Assembly (NCBI RefSeq): GCF_000016605.1
Contig: NC_009440.1
Location: 496,001-560,000 of the forward strand
Reading direction: 5' to 3'
Source of the DNA: Metallosphaera sedula DSM 5348
GTDB taxonomy: Archaea > Thermoproteota > Thermoprotei_A > Sulfolobales > Sulfolobaceae
Length of the DNA stretch: 64,000 nt
The position numbers and the translations under genes were made by a program. The first letter of the stretch is position 1, and the number at the start of each line of letters is the position of its first letter. Under the pieces are notes generated by a model. That model made no database searches and was not told the DNA's origin. It saw only the letters and a program-made list of their open reading frames with translations. Shown piece after piece: positions 15,336-52,098 of this stretch.

Positions 15336-15998
15336 ATGATTGTGACAGTAATCAATCAAAAGGGAGGAGTAGGGAAGACAACAACGGCAGTGAATCTAGC
15401 GTATGCCCTGTCCAAGGGAAGAAACGTGGGTCTTCTTGACATTGATCCTGAGGGGGGTACTTCTTTCTCCTTTGGCATAAGGAGGGATAAAAAGGAGTTT
15501 CCCCTGGGAGGAAAAAGCGTGAATATCTTTAATATCGAGATCTTCCCTGCCCACCTAGGGCTATTGAAACTGGAACTGGGTGGAGAAGTTGAGGAAGTAG
15601 TTAAATCGATAAAATCGATTGCAGAAGGTTTTGACGTTTTAGTGATAGATACCCCGCCCAACTTAGGAACACTGGCAGTTGCTTCCATGATAGCTGCGGA
15701 CAGGGTTATTTCACCCGTGACGCCACAACCCTTGGCCATAGAGGCGGTGAGAAATCTAGACTCCAGGCTCCAGAGTCTAGAGAAAAGGGCCATAGCCTTC
15801 GCCAGCATGTCAAAGAAGCCGATGGATATAGAACTTAGGGCTGTGAAGTTTGTCCAGATCTACGTTCCACCGTCAAAGCTCTTCTCTGAATCCTCTAGAC
15901 TCGGTGTTCCCGCCTCTAGATATGAGGAAGTAAAGCTGAAGAAACCCAAGATAGCCAAGATCTACGAGGAATTGGGAAAGGTGGCTCTGAGTGAGTGA
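15336..15998 (+). CDS. segA: SegA, ParA-family chromosome-segregation ATPase
   Basis: This ~220-aa protein begins MIVTVINQKGGVGKTTTAVN, a deviant Walker A (KGGVGKTT) at the very N-terminus. LLDIDPEGG (motif A') and VLVIDTPPNLG (Walker B) follow. ParA ATPases of this minimal type bind DNA nonspecifically and drive partition with a centromere-binding partner. The start at 15336 puts the Walker motif at the usual place; a TTG at 15279 would add an unlikely leader peptide. It overlaps the next gene by 8 bp, as expected for a segAB operon. TCTAGA sites occur within the gene at 15755, 15776, 15894 and 15915. Confidence 0.88.
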   Translation: MIVTVINQKGGVGKTTTAVNLAYALSKGRNVGLLDIDPEGGTSFSFGIRRDKKEFPLGGKSVNIFNIEIFPAHLGLLKLELGGEVEEVVKSIKSIAEGFDVLVIDTPPNLGTLAVASMIAADRVISPVTPQPLAIEAVRNLDSRLQSLEKRAIAFASMSKKPMDIELRAVKFVQIYVPPSKLFSESSRLGVPASRYEEVKLKKPKIAKIYEELGKVALSE

Positions 15999-16809
15999 GC
16001 TAGATTTTTTGCTGAAGAGAAAGAAGAAGACCGAAGGAGTTCAGGGAGGAGAGAGTGGAGGGCAGAGAGTAGAGAGTAGAGTTCAGGGAGGAGAGAGTGG
16101 AGGGCAGAGAGTAGAGAGTAGAGTTCAGGGAGGAGAGAGTGGAGGGCAGAGAGTAGAGAGTAGAGTTCAGGGAGGAGAGAGTGGAGGGCAGAGAGTAGAG
16201 AGTAGAGTTCAGGGAGGAGAGAGTGGAGGGCAGAGAGTAGAGAGTAGAGTTCAGGGAGGAGAGAGTGGAGGGCAGAGAGTAGAGAGTAGAGTTCAGGGAG
16301 GAGAGAGTGGAGGGCAGAGAGTAGAGAGTAGAGTTCAGGGAGGAGAGAGTGGAGGGCAGAGAGTAGAGAGTAGAGTTCAGGGAGGAGAGAGTGGAGGGCA
16401 GAGAGTAGAGAGTAGAGTTCAGGGAGGAGAGAGTGGAGGGCAGAGAGTAGAGAGTAGAGTTCAGGGAGGAGAGAGTGGAGGGCAGAGAGTAGAGTCCATA
16501 CAGATCTCTCCAGAGACTGATAGTCATCAGAACGGAAATACGGAGCAAACCACACAGACAGTTACCCAAACTTCAGTAGATCAGACCAGTCTTGAACAAC
16601 TAATGGAATCACTCCTGGATAAGGATCCTAAAATAGGAGTTTGGAGCTATCCGGGCTACGCGGTACTACAGTACCTGTATCATACAAAGCCTGGGTTTAG
16701 AATGAGTAAGGTAGCCAAAGACGCACTAGAATTAGGATTAAAACAGCTTTATCCAGATCTCTACTCTAAAGCCGAGTCCTTAGCTAGACAGAAGGGACTA
16801 ATCAAATGA
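15991..16809 (+). CDS. segB: SegB-like centromere-binding protein with 11-fold tandem-repeat linker
   Basis: The 272-aa protein starts at GTG 15991, overlapping segA. After a basic N-terminus (DFLLKRKKKTEG) come eleven consecutive copies of the 14-residue unit VQGGESGGQRVESR, occupying residues ~17-168. A Thr/Gln-rich stretch follows, then a ~70-residue C-terminal domain (IGVWSYPGYAVLQYL, then FRMSKVAKDALELGLKQLY) that fits a ribbon-helix-helix fold like SegB. Known SegB is about 110 aa, so the repeat block roughly doubles the protein. The linker is hydrophilic and surely disordered. The SegB identity rests on operon position and the C-terminal pattern. Confidence 0.7.
   Translation: MSELDFLLKRKKKTEGVQGGESGGQRVESRVQGGESGGQRVESRVQGGESGGQRVESRVQGGESGGQRVESRVQGGESGGQRVESRVQGGESGGQRVESRVQGGESGGQRVESRVQGGESGGQRVESRVQGGESGGQRVESRVQGGESGGQRVESRVQGGESGGQRVESIQISPETDSHQNGNTEQTTQTVTQTSVDQTSLEQLMESLLDKDPKIGVWSYPGYAVLQYLYHTKPGFRMSKVAKDALELGLKQLYPDLYSKAESLARQKGLIK
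16039..16494 (+). repeat. Tandem repeat, 42-bp unit, 10 full copies plus a 36-bp partial
   Basis: The units begin at 16039, 16081, 16123 and so on every 42 bp to 16459, and appear identical at every base by eye. The unit is strongly purine-biased on the plus strand (35 of 42 bases) and contains the heptamer GTAGAGT. Because 42 is divisible by three, copy-number change keeps segB in frame. Perfect identity means recent expansion or homogenisation. Long open frames on the minus strand here are a by-product of the period. Confidence 0.97.
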
Positions 16810-22795: not shown

Positions 22796-23773
22796 TCTCA
22801 TTAGCCTTCCTCCCACATATACTAAACCCACTGTGAGAACTGCAATGTAACCTATGTCAAACAGGGGAGGTAGAACGTTATATACGACAAGATCCCTAAT
22901 GACGTCATTTATTATGGAAAGGGGTTGATAGGCTACTATGGGCTTGAGGAGAGGTGGAAATGCACTGAGGCTGAAGAAGGCATTACTTAGAAACATTAGG
23001 GGAAAAACTAGGACGTTAGCCGCGGTCTGAGCCACAAACAGCTTGTCCTTTGGGCTTAGGCCAAATATAACTGCACCCAGACCGGCAAACATTAGCGTAG
23101 AGATGGCTAGGAATGCCACGAACGATACACTGATAAGGGGTAGAAATCCAAAGGCGAGGCCCAGGAGAAGGATGGGAACGGTGGAAATTAAGGTTATTAC
23201 GATCTCGTAAATTATGAGACCCATAACCCACTCGTAGCTCTTGAGAGGAGACGCAGCTATCCTATCAACCAGTTTATCCCTATAATATCCTGCGGCTACT
23301 CCCGTGACCCCAAATACCCCATTTGAAAGGGAAATAACTCCTATCATGCCGGAGATCACGTAATCGTAATAGGTAAATCCCTGTTGTGATAAGATATTGA
23401 AGGAGACCGTATTCGTACCGGAGAGGTAGTCCTGGATTATGGCCTCAAGGGAGGGCACCAGGTAGTTATCCTCTTGTGGGTAAAATATGCTTACCTTACT
23501 TCCGTTCACTTCTACGTAAATGTAATTGTGGATAAGGGCTTCTCTCTCGTTTGACCCAACAACGCCCGTAAACAGTTCGGTATGATTTAGGTAGCCCGCG
23601 AGGGAATTGTTTCCATTGACCACAACCACCACATGGGGTTCAGCCGCAGCACCAAATCCTAGCGCGAAAATGAGGGTCAGGAAAAGCGGGAAGAAGATTA
23701 CGAAGAACAGGGTAGTTTTACTGCTCAGGTTATCCTTTATAATGGCCCAGGCAGTAATCAGTGCATTCCTCAT
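22778..23773 (-). CDS. ABC-2 type transporter permease
   Basis: This 331-aa protein has an N-terminal membrane segment (TLFFVIFFPLFLTLIFALGF), an external domain of ~120 residues, and then five membrane segments ending near residue 320, the layout of DrrB/NatB-like ABC-2 exporters. It directly follows the ATPase gene, overlapping by one base. The substrate is unknown; drugs, lipids or surface molecules are typical. Confidence 0.88.
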   Translation of the reverse strand: MRNALITAWAIIKDNLSSKTTLFFVIFFPLFLTLIFALGFGAAAEPHVVVVVNGNNSLAGYLNHTELFTGVVGSNEREALIHNYIYVEVNGSKVSIFYPQEDNYLVPSLEAIIQDYLSGTNTVSFNILSQQGFTYYDYVISGMIGVISLSNGVFGVTGVAAGYYRDKLVDRIAASPLKSYEWVMGLIIYEIVITLISTVPILLLGLAFGFLPLISVSFVAFLAISTLMFAGLGAVIFGLSPKDKLFVAQTAANVLVFPLMFLSNAFFSLSAFPPLLKPIVAYQPLSIINDVIRDLVVYNVLPPLFDIGYIAVLTVGLVYVGGRLMRLRETD

Positions 23774-24498
23774 TACACATCACCTAGAGATTCCATGAGT
23801 GCCAGATACGCCTCCTCGAGGGACTGTTTTCTGAACTCTTCCATCAGTTCCCCAGGAGTGGATAGTCTAACGATCTTCCCGTTAAAGATAATTCCAATTC
23901 TGTCAGATAACTTCTGTGCCTCATCTAGGTAATGGGTTGTGAGAAGTACAGATATACCCCTCCTTTTGACCTCGGTTATCAGGTTCCAGACGTCCCTCCT
24001 AGACCTCGGATCCAGTCCGACCGTTGGCTCATCCATGAAAAGCAACTTTGGATCTCCTGCCAAGGAACATGCAATTGCAACTCTCCTCTTGTAACCTCCA
24101 GAAAGGTTTCTGAACCTTGTCTTCCTATATTCTAGAAGATCGAGAGTCTTCATGAGCTCCTCAACCTGAGATTCCTCTCCACGGTAGAGCTTCACGAAAT
24201 ATTTGATGTTCTCCTCTACGGTGAGATCAGAGAAACCTTGAAATTCCTGTGGCACAACCCCAACTCTTTCCCTTACCTTACTACACTGATCGGGAACGCT
24301 GTATCCCATGACCTCAACCTTCCCGCTAGTTGGCTTGGATATACAGGAGAGTATCTTCACAGTAGTGGTCTTACCTGCCCCGTTAGGTCCTAGCAGGGCA
24401 AAGATCTCACCACTTTCAACGTGAAAGCTTATCCCCCTCAAGGCCTCCTTGCGCCTGTTGTAAACCTTCCATAAGTTCTCGACGTCGACTATTCTCAT
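23773..24498 (-). CDS. ABC transporter ATP-binding protein, exporter type
   Basis: The 241-aa protein has Walker A GPNGAGKTTT near residue 34, signature LSGGYKRRVAIA near 134, Walker B LLFMDEPTVGLDP and switch His in TTHYLDEA. The DrrA/CcmA-like sequence pairs with the ABC-2 permease that follows. The two form a two-gene operon reading away from the FoxG-like gene. Confidence 0.93.
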   Translation of the reverse strand: MRIVDVENLWKVYNRRKEALRGISFHVESGEIFALLGPNGAGKTTTVKILSCISKPTSGKVEVMGYSVPDQCSKVRERVGVVPQEFQGFSDLTVEENIKYFVKLYRGEESQVEELMKTLDLLEYRKTRFRNLSGGYKRRVAIACSLAGDPKLLFMDEPTVGLDPRSRRDVWNLITEVKRRGISVLLTTHYLDEAQKLSDRIGIIFNGKIVRLSTPGELMEEFRKQSLEEAYLALMESLGDV

Positions 24499-24608
24499 GA
24501 GTCGATATATCTGAAAAAGGGAAAGTAATTAATTTATCGTAAATCCGTAATTAAAGAAAGGCCATATCACAGTAATGGGGTTGTTGGATTTAGCGCGTCA
24601 AGAACAAC

Positions 24609-46821: not shown

Positions 46822-47250
46822 GTGAAACTACCCGAAGCGATAATTGAAATTGGGAAGGAGGCTCGAAACGAAGCCAATGATGCGCTTGAGGGAAAACTGG
46901 ACGTCCAGGAAATCGTGAAGATACGACTAGATACCGCTGAATTTTACGTCGAGCAGGCCAGAGAAACACTAAAGGCCTCTCATGTTTTAGCTAGCGAAAT
47001 GTTGTTCAAGGCAATAGTTGAGGGCATTAAGGCCTTGGCAGACTACTTCGGGATAAGAAAGGAACTAAGGGAACTTCCGATGTACTTAGAGGACATCCTT
47101 GGCGAATGGATAGGAAATGCATGGGAGATTGGAAAAAGGCTACACTATGACGGGTATATATTCGAGTTCCTTCAGCAGGATGATGTTCAAGAATATCTAA
47201 AATATGTGAAGGAGTTCGTAAATAACTGCAAGATAGCTGTTCTTTATTAA
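46822..47250 (+). CDS. PaREP1/HEPN-like helical protein
   Basis: This 142-aa all-helical protein has FYVEQARETLKASHVLASEM and IKALADYFGI, resembling PaREP1 proteins (HEPN-type four-helix bundles). The HEPN catalytic RxxxxH is not evident. A TATA-like cttataag at 46789-46796 predicts a leaderless mRNA from GTG 46822. No nucleotidyltransferase partner lies next to it, so a toxin-antitoxin role is not supported. Confidence 0.65.
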   Translation: MKLPEAIIEIGKEARNEANDALEGKLDVQEIVKIRLDTAEFYVEQARETLKASHVLASEMLFKAIVEGIKALADYFGIRKELRELPMYLEDILGEWIGNAWEIGKRLHYDGYIFEFLQQDDVQEYLKYVKEFVNNCKIAVLY

Positions 47251-47660
47251 TCGTCATGCTCTCCTTGGTATACAATGGACAAGTTAATACTTTGTTCCAG
47301 TTGCGTTTTTGTCACATTGCCGTTAGCTATTCCCGTAACGTAAAATTGAACTTCGTATATTCCCTTATGAAGCTCCACCAAATCTGACGGTGACGATAAA
47401 GTTAGTACGACGGTCCTATGATCTCCCTTTGACAGGTCTAGTATCGCAATAACATAAAGGGACTTTATTGTACTGTTAGTGCTCAATTTCAGTAGATATC
47501 TTCCAGAATGGTCCACAACAAACGTTTCGGTGAAATTGAGATTGAAGGGGTGGCCTTGAGGTGTTGAAGTCGGGGTCGTCGTGGAAATCAATTTCACCGA
47601 GGAGAACACTGTAAAACCTAGGGAAATGGCCAAGAGAACAATCACAATGAGGGTTCTCAT
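47247..47660 (-). CDS. Secreted/membrane-anchored protein, last gene of the surface locus
   Basis: The 137-aa protein has an N-terminal hydrophobic segment (LIVIVLLAISLGFTVFSSV) as signal or anchor. A beta-rich extracellular domain follows with N-glycosylation sequons (NFT, NST, NVT, NLS). Its ATG overlaps the stop of the winged-helix gene by 4 bp, so the two are coupled. It overlaps the convergent PaREP1-like gene by 4 bp. No known family. Confidence 0.65.
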   Translation of the reverse strand: MRTLIVIVLLAISLGFTVFSSVKLISTTTPTSTPQGHPFNLNFTETFVVDHSGRYLLKLSTNSTIKSLYVIAILDLSKGDHRTVVLTLSSPSDLVELHKGIYEVQFYVTGIANGNVTKTQLEQSINLSIVYQGEHDD

Positions 47661-48379
47661 TTTGCACCACCTTTTATCACGTACTTAACCTTTCCCCTCT
47701 CCCTGATCTCCTCCACGAGTCCTAGTGTTACTAGTTTCTTCACCCTCCTATACACCGTGGTTCTCGGGAGGAGTGACAACTCTGATATCTTATTTAGGTT
47801 ATCAGCACCTGCCCTTATGGCATCGAGTATCTTCATGTCCCTATCATCTAGCTCGTTGGGAGGGGTAATTTGAGGGGATGGTCTTCGTCTCCAAAGCAAA
47901 TAGGCCAAGTAAGCTGTTACTCCACTGCTCACTCCCGTGGTATAAATGTAAGGGTTTAGGAATGGATTCTGATCCATGACGTAGTACAGGACGGTAACAT
48001 TACCACCACTGAACGTGATATTTACGTATTGTCCCTCCTCATTGAGGGATATTGGAGTAGGGGACATATAGGTGATCTTGGAGTTCAAGGGAAGAAGTAC
48101 CGAGACTGAGGATATATTGGGTTGAGAGATCTGTATAACTCCCTTGGTCTTAACGTGAAACTCGATCTCCGAGGTATTAATAGGGTAGACGTATTGCCCC
48201 TTTTCCACTACTCCCTGTGATGTGGCGAGGGTCCAATTGCTTGGGATGAGAATCCATTCGGGCTTGTTAAAATATAGTATGACTGTACCGTTATAGTAGA
48301 ATGTTGCACTGACTTGTGAAATTGCAACTGGTAATAATGCCAAGACCATCACCAGCAGGAAGATTACCCTCTGAGACAT
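47657..48379 (-). CDS. Membrane-anchored winged-helix protein with extracellular sensor-like domain
   Basis: The 240-aa protein has a signal peptide (~1-25), an extracellular beta-rich domain with sequons (NGT, NWT, NTS, NIS, NIT, NVT), and a membrane segment at ~142-162 (YTTGVSSGVTAYLAYLLW) ending in RRRP. The cytosolic C-terminus, ~175-238, is a winged helix (DDRDMKILDAIRAGADNLNK, then LLPRTTVYRRVKKLVTLGLV). Topology follows the positive-inside rule. This looks like a one-component transmembrane regulator whose gene lies in the operon of surface proteins. Confidence 0.75.
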   Translation of the reverse strand: MSQRVIFLLVMVLALLPVAISQVSATFYYNGTVILYFNKPEWILIPSNWTLATSQGVVEKGQYVYPINTSEIEFHVKTKGVIQISQPNISSVSVLLPLNSKITYMSPTPISLNEEGQYVNITFSGGNVTVLYYVMDQNPFLNPYIYTTGVSSGVTAYLAYLLWRRRPSPQITPPNELDDRDMKILDAIRAGADNLNKISELSLLPRTTVYRRVKKLVTLGLVEEIRERGKVKYVIKGGAK

Positions 48380-48507
48380 GACAGTAACACCGCTATCCCA
48401 GTCAGGGCGATGATGGCAAAGTAGAATAGAAATGCAAGTACCACGGATAGGCTAGGATACGCTGGAGCTATAAATGCCATAAGCTTTAGCAAGTACTCAG
48501 CTGCCAT
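48364..48507 (-). CDS. 47-aa hydrophobic membrane peptide of the surface locus
   Basis: Read on the minus strand from ATG 48507, the frame encodes 47 residues: MAAEYLLKLMAFIAPAYP, a hydrophobic run (VVLAFLFYFAIIALTGIAVL), and a short CLRG tail. One or two membrane segments are expected. It starts 36 bp after the large surface-protein gene and overlaps the winged-helix gene by 16 bp, so it fills an otherwise empty operon gap. The operon context is the main support. Confidence 0.55.
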   Translation of the reverse strand: MAAEYLLKLMAFIAPAYPSLSVVLAFLFYFAIIALTGIAVLLSCLRG

Positions 48508-48542
48508 GAATAAAAATAGAAATTATAAGATAAAAAATGTTG

Positions 48543-51134
48543 TCACTTCTTCCTTCTGAGCAAAATTAGAACAACTACAATGATTATAATCACTACAACA
48601 ATGGCAATGTAAAATGCAGGGTTCTGGACGATCACTGATGTCAACGGAGGCGTTACAGTGACGAAGAAGTGATCATTTTGAACGAATGGGACAAGGGATC
48701 CTGTCTGGTTCCAAACTAGTGTCAGCGTCAATGGATATGAACCAACAGATGCTCCTCCGCTTACGTCGACCACGTAAGTAACGTTAATCTCTTGTCCAGG
48801 ACCTATATCACCTAAACTCGACTCAGACGCGGTCAAGCCCTGTAAGGGATTGGATGAACTCACGTGAGGATATATTACGTCAGAAGTTCCAAGTATCGCC
48901 TTAACATTCTTGGCAGTTGCGTTACCCACATTCTTAACAATCAAGGTAATGGGGACTTTAGTATCACCTGCCTGTAAGGATGGATATATTACTTTAACTA
49001 TTGTTAGATTGGCCTTAGGATATACTGTCAAGGAGTAAGATTTGGTGTAACTCCCACCATCGTAGAATACTGTGAAATTAAGGTGGTACTGCCCTGGGCT
49101 GACCGAGTCTGGTACGTTAATGAGGAAGGACACATTTATGGGCACACCGGGAGGGATAGCCCCAATAGTCAAGTTATTTTGAGAAATCACTGGGAAGGGC
49201 GACTGTAGTAGGACATACGAGTTCTGTGCCGCGGCAGTTCCGTAATTGGTGATTACACCTTCAACCCTCACATCATAAAATCCTGGAAATACCTGAGGTG
49301 GCACGGTGAAAAGTGAGAGAGCTATCTTAGGTGGGTAAACGGTAACCGGAACGTACTCAGTTACATTAACTTGACTATAATGCATAATCACTGGTATGTA
49401 ATACGTCCCAGGCGTCGCGTTGGGATATACGTTCACGGTTATTGTACCCTCGTTAATCTGACCTGCTGGAACTATCCCTATCATAAGAGAATTCTGGGTG
49501 AATTGAATGGGGAACTCCGAACTACTGACGTATAGCGAAACGTTGAGCGCATTTACATCCCCTAGGTTTCTCACAATGAAGGTTAAGGGAAGATTAGTTT
49601 GACCTGGTGCAGCGGTCAAGGGTGAAGAGGTGGATCCCCAGACGCTGGATACGGAGAAAGTCTCGTAACCAACTATGGGAACAGTGATGAAGGTACTGAT
49701 CACCTCCTTCCCTGAGAAATACTGGATTTGGGCGGGGACCTGGTATACTCCCGTGGTCGCGTTGGGGTAAACCGAGGCATAGGTTGTGACCTCAATGGGT
49801 TGTCCTGGCGGTAAGTAGCCTATGTTGAGGTAGTTCTGCATGAACTTGATGGGGTAGGTTGAGGTTAGGAGAAGAGAGGCGTTGGACATCTCCACGTTGC
49901 CCTGGTTGTCTATGATGAGTGTTATGGGAACGTTGTTGTCACCAGGTGCGACCAGTTGAGGTGAGGAGGGAGAACCCCAAACTGCCTGAACTGATGCCCT
50001 GGTGTAGCCTAGGATGGCGACTGGTACGTAAATGGTTTGCTTCTCGTCAAAGTAGTTTATAGTTCCCTTGACATAGTACACGCCAGGAGAGGCGTTAGAG
50101 TACACCGAGACAGTCAGCGTAGTTTCTGAGTAAAGTCCTGCAGGTATTATGCCAAGGTAACCGCTAGTTTGCAGGAAATGTAATGGGAACTCGTTCTGAG
50201 GGAAGGTAATTGAAACGTTGTCCACATTGACGTCGCCCAGGTTGTTGAGTATTATGGTGAGCGGAAGCCTAGCACTCCCAGCTCCGGCCACTAGGGGATT
50301 AGATGTGCTTCCCCAGATTGTAGTGGCGGAGAAATTAGCGTAACCAGTAATTGGAATAGATATCGTAGTAGTTATCCTGGAATGTGAGAAATACTGGATT
50401 TGGGCGGGGACCTGGTATACTCCCGTGGTCGCGTTGGGGTAAACCGAGGCATAGGTTGTGACCTCAATGGGTTGTCCTGGCGGTAAGTAGCCTATGTTGA
50501 GGTAGTTCTGCATGAACTTGATGGGGTAGGTTGAGGTTAGGAGAAGAGAGGCGTTGGACATCTCCACGTTGCCCTGGTTGTCTATGATGAGTGTTATGGG
50601 AACGTTGTTGTCACCAGGTGCGACCAGTTGAGGTGAGGAGGGAGAACCCCAAACTGCCTGAACTGATGCCCTGGTGTAGCCTAGGATAGCAACAGAGGCA
50701 TTAACAGTCTCATGGAATTTGTGAAATATCGAAATTGGTCCTGCGACCTTCAGGCTTATATTATAGACTCCGTTAGAGGCGGAGGTATTAATATTGTAGT
50801 AGTAAATTACGTTGATTACCTGCCCTGGATTCCATTGAAGTATTGATGTATTTTGTGTATTATTGTAATAATTTATAAGGGTGAAGGGATATACGCTAAA
50901 TGCTGAGATATTAACATCATACAGTGCAAAATTGTTGGCATTAATCAAAGTGAAGTTGATTGGGACATCCGTCATTCCAGGAGCCAATGGTTCCTCTAGG
51001 GGTCTGGCGTACATTATAAAGTGCAACTGAGGAGAGGAAATTCCTATTCCAAAACCAACTGAAACAGTCGCGAAAAATGTTCCAAGAAGCAATAGTCCGG
51101 TTATTAACGTAATGTACAAAGACCTTGATGTCAT
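48543..51134 (-). CDS. Large cell-surface protein with repeated CARDB/NEW3-like Ig domains
   Basis: The ~863-aa protein has an N-terminal membrane segment (LYITLITGLLLLGTFFATV), about seven tandem beta-sandwich units of ~110 residues, and a C-terminal anchor followed by LLRRKK. Each unit contains a phrase like PGDNNVPITLIIDNQGNVEM and ends in a VYPNATTGVY-type strand, as in CARDB/NEW3 adhesive domains. It should be anchored with the repeats outside and is rich in N-glycosylation sequons. Two units are identical at DNA level. ATG 51134 is preferred over 51170, which would translate the TATA region. Confidence 0.8.
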   Translation of the reverse strand: MTSRSLYITLITGLLLLGTFFATVSVGFGIGISSPQLHFIMYARPLEEPLAPGMTDVPINFTLINANNFALYDVNISAFSVYPFTLINYYNNTQNTSILQWNPGQVINVIYYYNINTSASNGVYNISLKVAGPISIFHKFHETVNASVAILGYTRASVQAVWGSPSSPQLVAPGDNNVPITLIIDNQGNVEMSNASLLLTSTYPIKFMQNYLNIGYLPPGQPIEVTTYASVYPNATTGVYQVPAQIQYFSHSRITTTISIPITGYANFSATTIWGSTSNPLVAGAGSARLPLTIILNNLGDVNVDNVSITFPQNEFPLHFLQTSGYLGIIPAGLYSETTLTVSVYSNASPGVYYVKGTINYFDEKQTIYVPVAILGYTRASVQAVWGSPSSPQLVAPGDNNVPITLIIDNQGNVEMSNASLLLTSTYPIKFMQNYLNIGYLPPGQPIEVTTYASVYPNATTGVYQVPAQIQYFSGKEVISTFITVPIVGYETFSVSSVWGSTSSPLTAAPGQTNLPLTFIVRNLGDVNALNVSLYVSSSEFPIQFTQNSLMIGIVPAGQINEGTITVNVYPNATPGTYYIPVIMHYSQVNVTEYVPVTVYPPKIALSLFTVPPQVFPGFYDVRVEGVITNYGTAAAQNSYVLLQSPFPVISQNNLTIGAIPPGVPINVSFLINVPDSVSPGQYHLNFTVFYDGGSYTKSYSLTVYPKANLTIVKVIYPSLQAGDTKVPITLIVKNVGNATAKNVKAILGTSDVIYPHVSSSNPLQGLTASESSLGDIGPGQEINVTYVVDVSGGASVGSYPLTLTLVWNQTGSLVPFVQNDHFFVTVTPPLTSVIVQNPAFYIAIVVVIIIIVVVLILLRRKK
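49713..50015. repeat. 303-bp perfect direct repeat, copy A
   Basis: Identical by eye to 50385-50687; the two are offset by 672 bp (224 codons, two domain lengths). It lies wholly within the surface-protein gene and encodes one Ig-like unit from GYTRASVQAVW to the VPAQIQYFS strand. Confidence 0.95.
50385..50687. repeat. 303-bp perfect direct repeat, copy B
   Basis: Second copy of the block at 49713. The intervening domain and all others diverge strongly, so the identity marks recent conversion or duplication. Confidence 0.95.
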
Positions 51135-51222
51135 GGTTGCTAAAGATATATCTTTAGTATTTAAAGTCATGTAATGGTAAATGTTTCAGACGATTAGAGG
51201 AAGAGACAGGAAATACTTTGGT

Positions 51223-52098
51223 CTATTTACCCTTGAGTTCCCAGTAAGCTCTTTCGAAGGCTTTGTTTACAACGTCAAGGTAACGGGTAAGGTTCTTCAT
51301 TTCATCAAGCCTTATCATAACTAGGAAAACATTAGTTGAACCGTTCTTGTTATAGAATGATATCTCCGGTGGCTGGGCCTTCATACTCTTGAACTCGTCC
51401 TCGATGAGGTTGCGTGCTTTCTCCAACAGAAGGTTACCTGGCACGTCAGCATTAACCGTGAGTTCGTAGGGATAGGAAAATGACCCATCCTCCTTTAACT
51501 TGGTGAACACGGTGTTTCCAAGGAATGCCGAGTTCGGAACCTTAACCAAATTTCCCGAGATAGTCCTAACTTCTGTAAAGAGAAGGGTGACCCTTTCGGC
51601 CTCTCCGACTATGGGTGGAGACCAAATCCACGACTGTAGTATAACCGCGTCTCCAGGTCTCAAGGTTCTGCTTGATGTGACCATAACCCCAGATAGAATG
51701 TTGGAGACAACAGTTTGAGCAGCTAAACCTATGGCCACACCGCCCACCGCACCGCCTATGGCTGCACCCGTTAGATTCACCCCTAGGGCTGAGAGGATTG
51801 CCAACACCAAGAGAGTGTATAGCACGAGATCTACGACAAGAGATACGGTCCTCATGGTCACCTTATCGGCTCTTGAGGCCAAGTAGTTCTCCAAAGCGTA
51901 TTTGATGATTCTAATGACAATGTAGCCTCCTATTCCTACGAGAGCAGCATCCAATCCGAGCTGCACATCATTAACATATGGCACCAATTTGGAATTAGAA
52001 GCGATGAATGCTGATAAAATAACATGAAGAATGTAAACTAAGGCTCCAATTATTATTAGCAGAACAAGGATTCTTATTAGTGGTCTAGTAGAACTCAT
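51223..52098 (-). CDS. MscS-family mechanosensitive channel
   Basis: In this 291-aa protein three or four N-terminal membrane segments lead to the pore helix AAIGGAVGGVAIGLAAQTVV (small residues at close-packed positions), followed by SNILSGVMV and the beta domain with LRPGDAVIL and VRTISGNLVKVPNS. It protects against osmotic downshift. Its gene is 88 bp upstream of the surface-protein gene, in the same direction; co-transcription is possible. Confidence 0.9.
   Translation of the reverse strand: MSSTRPLIRILVLLIIIGALVYILHVILSAFIASNSKLVPYVNDVQLGLDAALVGIGGYIVIRIIKYALENYLASRADKVTMRTVSLVVDLVLYTLLVLAILSALGVNLTGAAIGGAVGGVAIGLAAQTVVSNILSGVMVTSSRTLRPGDAVILQSWIWSPPIVGEAERVTLLFTEVRTISGNLVKVPNSAFLGNTVFTKLKEDGSFSYPYELTVNADVPGNLLLEKARNLIEDEFKSMKAQPPEISFYNKNGSTNVFLVMIRLDEMKNLTRYLDVVNKAFERAYWELKGK

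Follow-up and report, generated by a model that had tools for sequence, protein, structure and literature searches.

The analysed window is a stretch of 64,000 nucleotides from Metallosphaera sedula DSM 5348 (positions 496001–560000 of a single-contig genome of 2,191,517 bases), and positions given without a locus label refer to it. Four genes lie on its minus strand and are read in the following order: SURF (48543–51134), which encodes a surface protein with NEW3/CARDB-type repeats and a C-terminal membrane helix; a gene for a 47-aa membrane peptide (48364–48507); P0003 (47657–48379), a transmembrane winged-helix protein recognised by Pfam, predicted structure, and family comparison; and P0004 (47247–47660), a protein of family c1 with an N-terminal membrane anchor and a small extracellular domain carrying four sequons. 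P0003, P0004, and SURF are used here as gene labels. The long SURF frame reaches position 51170, and the start at 51134 is preferred. The peptide and P0003 genes overlap by 16 nt, and P0003 and P0004 by 4 nt, so that the start and stop overlaps of the last three genes are exact, as had been read from the sequence in the original prediction. A convergent PaREP1 gene overlaps P0004 by 4 nt at the other end, and immediately upstream of SURF, co-directional with it, is a gene of the MscS channel family (51223–52098, minus strand), a neighbour kept in genus g2 and in all but one of the six Metallosphaera genomes.

For the comparison we used 31 Sulfolobaceae genomes, six of them placed in the genus of the window and called Metallosphaera below and 25 others; genera are labelled g1, g2, g4, and so on. 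The order SURF–peptide–P0003–P0004, predicted as a run of four genes in one direction, was repeated in all six Metallosphaera genomes, and the genes are therefore not chance reading frames. A search of viral contigs with two profiles found no relatives, so a viral or mobile origin was rejected, and a search with guessed Msed locus tags found no publication on this locus.

P0003 is built from an N-terminal hydrophobic stretch or signal peptide (residues ~1–25), an ectodomain (26–142), a membrane helix (145–163), the tripeptide RRR, and a winged helix (177–235; window positions 47675–47851, minus strand). The winged helix is certain: the TrmB and HTH_IclR profiles score above the Pfam cut-off, four HTH profiles match all 30 P0003 relatives, the AlphaFold model has a pLDDT of about 87–93 per ten-residue block over residues 181–230, and the structural neighbours of the domain are MarR/ArsR-like. 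Its recognition-helix region, TTxYRRxKKL, is nearly invariant among the relatives. Elsewhere the model has low confidence and that of the ectodomain is too weak for use; neither this ectodomain nor the P0004 domain showed detectable homology to known sensors or lipocalins.

The orientation of the protein can be read from the distribution of sequons and charges in the 30 relatives. The ectodomains contain 197 sequons in 3709 residues (5.31 per 100 aa, where shuffles lead us to expect 70), as against 15 in 2536 residues (0.59 per 100 aa) in the C-terminal cytosolic part, and the share of K+R rises from 4% in the ectodomain to 22% in the C-terminal part. This pattern places the winged helix inside and the ectodomain outside; the topology check proposed with the original prediction comes out in its favour, and a winged helix outside the cell is rejected. 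The reading of P0003 as a one-component regulator that spans the membrane and senses outside the cell is supported. The membrane helix is the weaker part of the predicted layout: its Kyte–Doolittle value is 0.83–1.17 in the six Metallosphaera orthologues, below the usual thresholds, and 1.55–3.0 in the 24 members outside this orthologue group, where the helix is strong. The unusually polar helix (window positions 47891–47947) is a feature of the Metallosphaera orthologues only. RRR directly follows it in five of the six genomes, and the N-terminal hydrophobic stretch may be cleaved.

The companion protein, P0004, had been called secreted. An extracellular location fits our data, but the protein seems to be anchored in the membrane and not freely secreted, as no consistent cleavage motif follows the N-terminal hydrophobic stretch in its family. 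The predicted model is beta-rich, of low confidence (mean pLDDT of 49), and too weak for use, and searches gave no PDB match and no Pfam match, TasA/camelysin-type domains included, apart from scattered marginal Pfam matches in single relatives. Some members of the family carry long Ser/Gly/Asn-rich tails. Among the genomes searched, the family was found in 31/31 Sulfolobaceae and in 1/166 other genomes of the order. A second family of small secreted proteins, c3, is homologous to it (hhalign probability of 96.9%, E = 1.7e-10).

Full-length P0003-like proteins are likewise present in all 31 Sulfolobaceae genomes, and the genes of the two families travel together. Of the 36 P0004-family genes, 32 have a P0003-like gene within 5 kb, where chance would give ~0.65% per gene, and for 22 of them it is no more than 500 bp away; these counts, like the motif counts below, were taken over related genomes, so that the trials are not independent and common descent inflates the linkage. 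Genes of c3 are found beside P0003-like genes in many genera; about half of them (25/49) have a P0003 relative, full-length or short, within 5 kb, and in five loci a c3 gene directly adjoins a short relative that has the membrane helix and the winged helix without the ectodomain; the ORFs are intact in four of these five split loci. The conserved unit is the pair of P0003 and P0004, the latter being the constant companion of the former. An adjacent P0004-like gene is missing beside four group-A copies in genus g6 and in both g8 genomes. In Metallosphaera and in g5, P0004 follows P0003 co-directionally with a 4-nt overlap, and a divergent arrangement is frequent in other genera. The family tree of P0003 has two old paralogous groups, and that of P0003 includes the g5 pairs. 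The design of ectodomain, helix, and winged helix reaches families beyond Sulfolobaceae, and no P0004-type partner was seen beside the two examples inspected there.

The genome of the window has a second P0003/P0004-type copy (L100, 8281–15579), in which a Rieske/cytochrome b-like gene stands between the two genes and a divergent type IV pilin/T2SSE operon adjoins the copy. Type IV pilin and T2SSE genes also occur near the short P0003 relatives.

The peptide, P0003, and P0004 genes seem to form a unit with its own leaderless promoter, judging from a putative TATA box, TTTTTTAT (48530–48537, minus strand), whose centre is about 26 nt before the ATG of the peptide gene; four other Metallosphaera genomes have a T-rich element at a comparable position. 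Shine–Dalgarno-like motifs on the same strand precede the two downstream genes: GGTG inside the peptide gene for P0003 (48388–48391; GCGGTG in four of the six Metallosphaera genomes and ACGGTG in the other two) and GGTGGTG inside P0003 for P0004 (47665–47671). The gene overlaps together with these motifs suggest that the three genes are translationally coupled. In other genera, the divergent P0003/P0004-type promoters have repeated, paired G[GA]AAC boxes in common (11 pairs versus 0.06 in shuffles), as would be expected if P0003-type regulators control their own genes. The P0003 locus of Metallosphaera showed no such boxes.

The first gene of the four presents a different picture. SURF matches NPCBM_assoc/NEW3 (PF10633) with 71.3 bits against a Pfam cut-off of 24.4, which bears out its description as a repeated surface protein. 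Within it, two segments of 300 nt on the minus strand, copy A (50385–50684) and copy B (49713–50012), are 100% identical at a distance of 672 nt, with unrelated flanks. Paired segments are likewise exact over 297–312 nt within each of the six Metallosphaera genomes, yet they differ by 15–26% between species, which points to continual homogenisation of the repeats, that is, to strict concerted evolution within one gene. Exact repeats of 84–248 nt occur in the Saccharolobus-like and Sulfolobus-like SURF genes (L149–L155), and one SURF relative (G119; L159, 7054–9975) consists in part of about five identical 336-nt tandem units. Elsewhere in the window, an ORF after a ParA-like gene (15991–16809) has about ten near-identical repeats (VQGGESGGQRVESR). 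SURF resembles the COG1361/NEW3 (PF10633) repeat proteins in its match far above the cut-off and its C-terminal anchor, and differs from them in its long Sulfolobaceae form, its own putative operator, and its self-identical modules.

The SURF promoter has a TATA box, TTTAAATA (51158–51165, minus strand), that is identical in the six Metallosphaera genomes and is directly followed by a perfect 18-bp palindrome, CTAAAGATATATCTTTAG (51140–51157), a putative operator that is unique in the genome at up to three mismatches. The whole stretch GACTTTAAATACTAAAGATATATCTTT is identical in the six genomes, and it is not coding, since one of them (L104) has an in-frame stop there. Across the family, 26/26 SURF promoters have the core GATATATC immediately behind the TATA box, with 0.025 expected per window, and the combined pattern TTAAATA-N3-6-GATATATC has 19 matches in the 31 genomes, 17 of them at SURF. 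A looser site with GATATATC (24504–24511) stands just upstream of the start of an ABC exporter ATPase gene (23773–24498, minus strand), and looser sites also precede two MFS transporter genes elsewhere in the genome, suggesting a putative exporter regulon. The best-matching literature for GATATATC and Sulfolobus does not contain the motif. Since the motifs at SURF and at P0003-family promoters differ, SURF is probably under a regulator other than P0003; motif comparisons did not support P0003 as the reader of the palindrome. SURF and the last three genes appear to have separate promoters, so that the four genes need not be a single operon.

Conservation of the gene order, which the original prediction had named as its check, held for the six Metallosphaera genomes and failed beyond them: the 25 remaining Sulfolobaceae genomes have SURF and P0003-like genes at separate places. 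In two g2 genomes (L147, L148, L135, L136), the flanking order of a VIT1-like gene, a permease, PaREP1, SURF, MscS, and further genes is kept with SURF, while the P0003/P0004-type pair lies elsewhere. On this basis the pair either came to SURF in the Metallosphaera line or moved away from it in g2, the first being the simpler course, and the synteny rules out SURF as part of the same ancient unit as P0003 and P0004. SURF and the 47-aa peptide make up a separate, older pair, with peptide relatives sharing a P-x-Y motif found directly downstream of SURF in four genera (g1, g2, g4, and g5). Six loci from three genera (L142, L144, L145, L146, L157, L158) have MMPL transporters next to or near a SURF relative, an MFS transporter is divergent from SURF relatives in two loci, and an ABC-FtsX operon includes a SURF-like paralogue (L127). 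These exporter neighbours do not point to an adhesin, and an exporter-associated extracellular role for SURF is as plausible as adhesion; the Pfam search matched no adhesion domain.

Our main reading, to which we give a probability of roughly 60%, is that P0003 acts as a transmembrane one-component regulator and P0004 as its co-encoded partner outside the cell, in the manner of the bacterial ToxR/ToxS type with the domains reversed. P0003 would be exported so that its ectodomain lies outside, one helix spans the membrane, and the winged helix remains in the cytosol, a step well supported by sequence, and P0004 would be anchored beside it with its small domain outside. From the constant gene linkage and from the split forms, which pair a P0004-like protein with a relative lacking the ectodomain, we infer that both outside domains jointly detect some state of the envelope or environment, P0004 supplying, stabilising, or gating the sensing. 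The signal would then alter dimerisation of the winged helix or its access to DNA and so control the pair's own locus and probably also nearby surface genes, such as the type IV pili near the second Metallosphaera copy. In Metallosphaera, the pair would have come to lie beside the older SURF–peptide pair; P0003 might control SURF, but nothing points to it. A wider version is more tentative, with odds somewhat short of even: a cocomponent system of the whole family Sulfolobaceae, in which reversed-order transmembrane winged helices share sensing with small extracellular proteins, or in the split forms receive it wholly from them, and control envelope and pilus genes.

We consider it unlikely that the P0004-like proteins are instead the regulated output, a surface or filament component whose production P0003 controls on another cue. 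The frequent divergent arrangement with common promoter boxes would suit such a role, as would the long Ser/Gly/Asn-rich tails of some members, which are typical of exposed surface proteins; but the split loci put the P0004-like protein directly before a winged helix that has no sensor of its own, and the 4-nt overlap after P0003 in Metallosphaera and g5 is typical of partners in a complex. The view that all four genes are one system, in which P0003 senses the surface and directly controls SURF in attachment or envelope remodelling, comes closest to the original prediction and seems to us rather doubtful. It can draw on the gene order kept throughout Metallosphaera, on a palindrome that suits a dimeric winged helix, and on two g5 loci (L107, L110) where an unrelated secreted protein also precedes the P0003–P0004 pair. 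Against it, the operator core is present in all SURF promoters, including those of genomes with distant P0003-like genes, it precedes the ABC and MFS exporter genes in Metallosphaera, the promoters of the P0003 family have a different motif, and g2 retains SURF with its neighbours without the pair. The proposed tie of P0003 to SURF as a sensing or attachment system is not supported, its linkage being confined to Metallosphaera, with a putative operator of SURF's own and exporter neighbours.

Improbable as we judge it, a further alternative is prompted by the polar helix: Metallosphaera P0003 may be held loosely in the membrane, acting after proteolytic release of the winged helix or depending on the 47-aa peptide or the P0004 helix to remain in place. 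In its favour, the one genus in which the peptide gene overlaps P0003 is also the only one with a markedly less hydrophobic helix. Against it, the stop-transfer RRR stands after the helix in five of six genomes, and the distribution of sequons and charges still agrees with a protein that spans the membrane.

Signalling from membrane to DNA is poorly known in archaea. As all the Sulfolobaceae genomes searched have a regulator of this kind with a putative partner, the question can be put directly to the test in a tractable model. The prediction from the split forms is that the small extracellular protein itself belongs to the sensor. SURF, for its part, is a clear example of one gene with a putative operator common to the family and of strict homogenisation within its own sequence.

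In ToxR-type proteins the DNA-binding domain comes first. P0003 differs in being archaeal, with signal peptide and ectodomain first and the winged helix last, and membership of the ToxR/ToxS type by descent is not claimed. Among membrane-bound one-component regulators of Sulfolobales, it can be set beside ArnR/ArnR1 of Sulfolobus acidocaldarius, and some P0003 relatives have type IV pilus genes nearby. In ArnR the HTH is N-terminal, together with a HAMP-like and sensor domain, the two membrane helices are at the C terminus, and no co-encoded partner is given (PMC6396743); P0003, whose winged helix is C-terminal after one membrane helix, has the wrong domain order for this group. Of the transmembrane regulators that we saw given as studied in the review PMC10269533, ArnR is the sole archaeal one. 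The same review sets out the cocomponent concept (ToxR/ToxS, TcpP/TcpH, VtrA/VtrC) and reports a lipocalin-like partner fold for many cocomponents, though not all. Set against its definition, P0003 has a recognisable DNA-binding domain, and its transmembrane region is clear in the 24 other members and marginal in the six Metallosphaera orthologues; the adjacent gene for a small extracytoplasmic partner is present as P0004. What the archaeal pair would share with ToxR/ToxS is a DNA-binding domain predicted to be held at the membrane, an extracytoplasmic domain, and, next to it in the genome, the gene of a small anchored extracytoplasmic partner.
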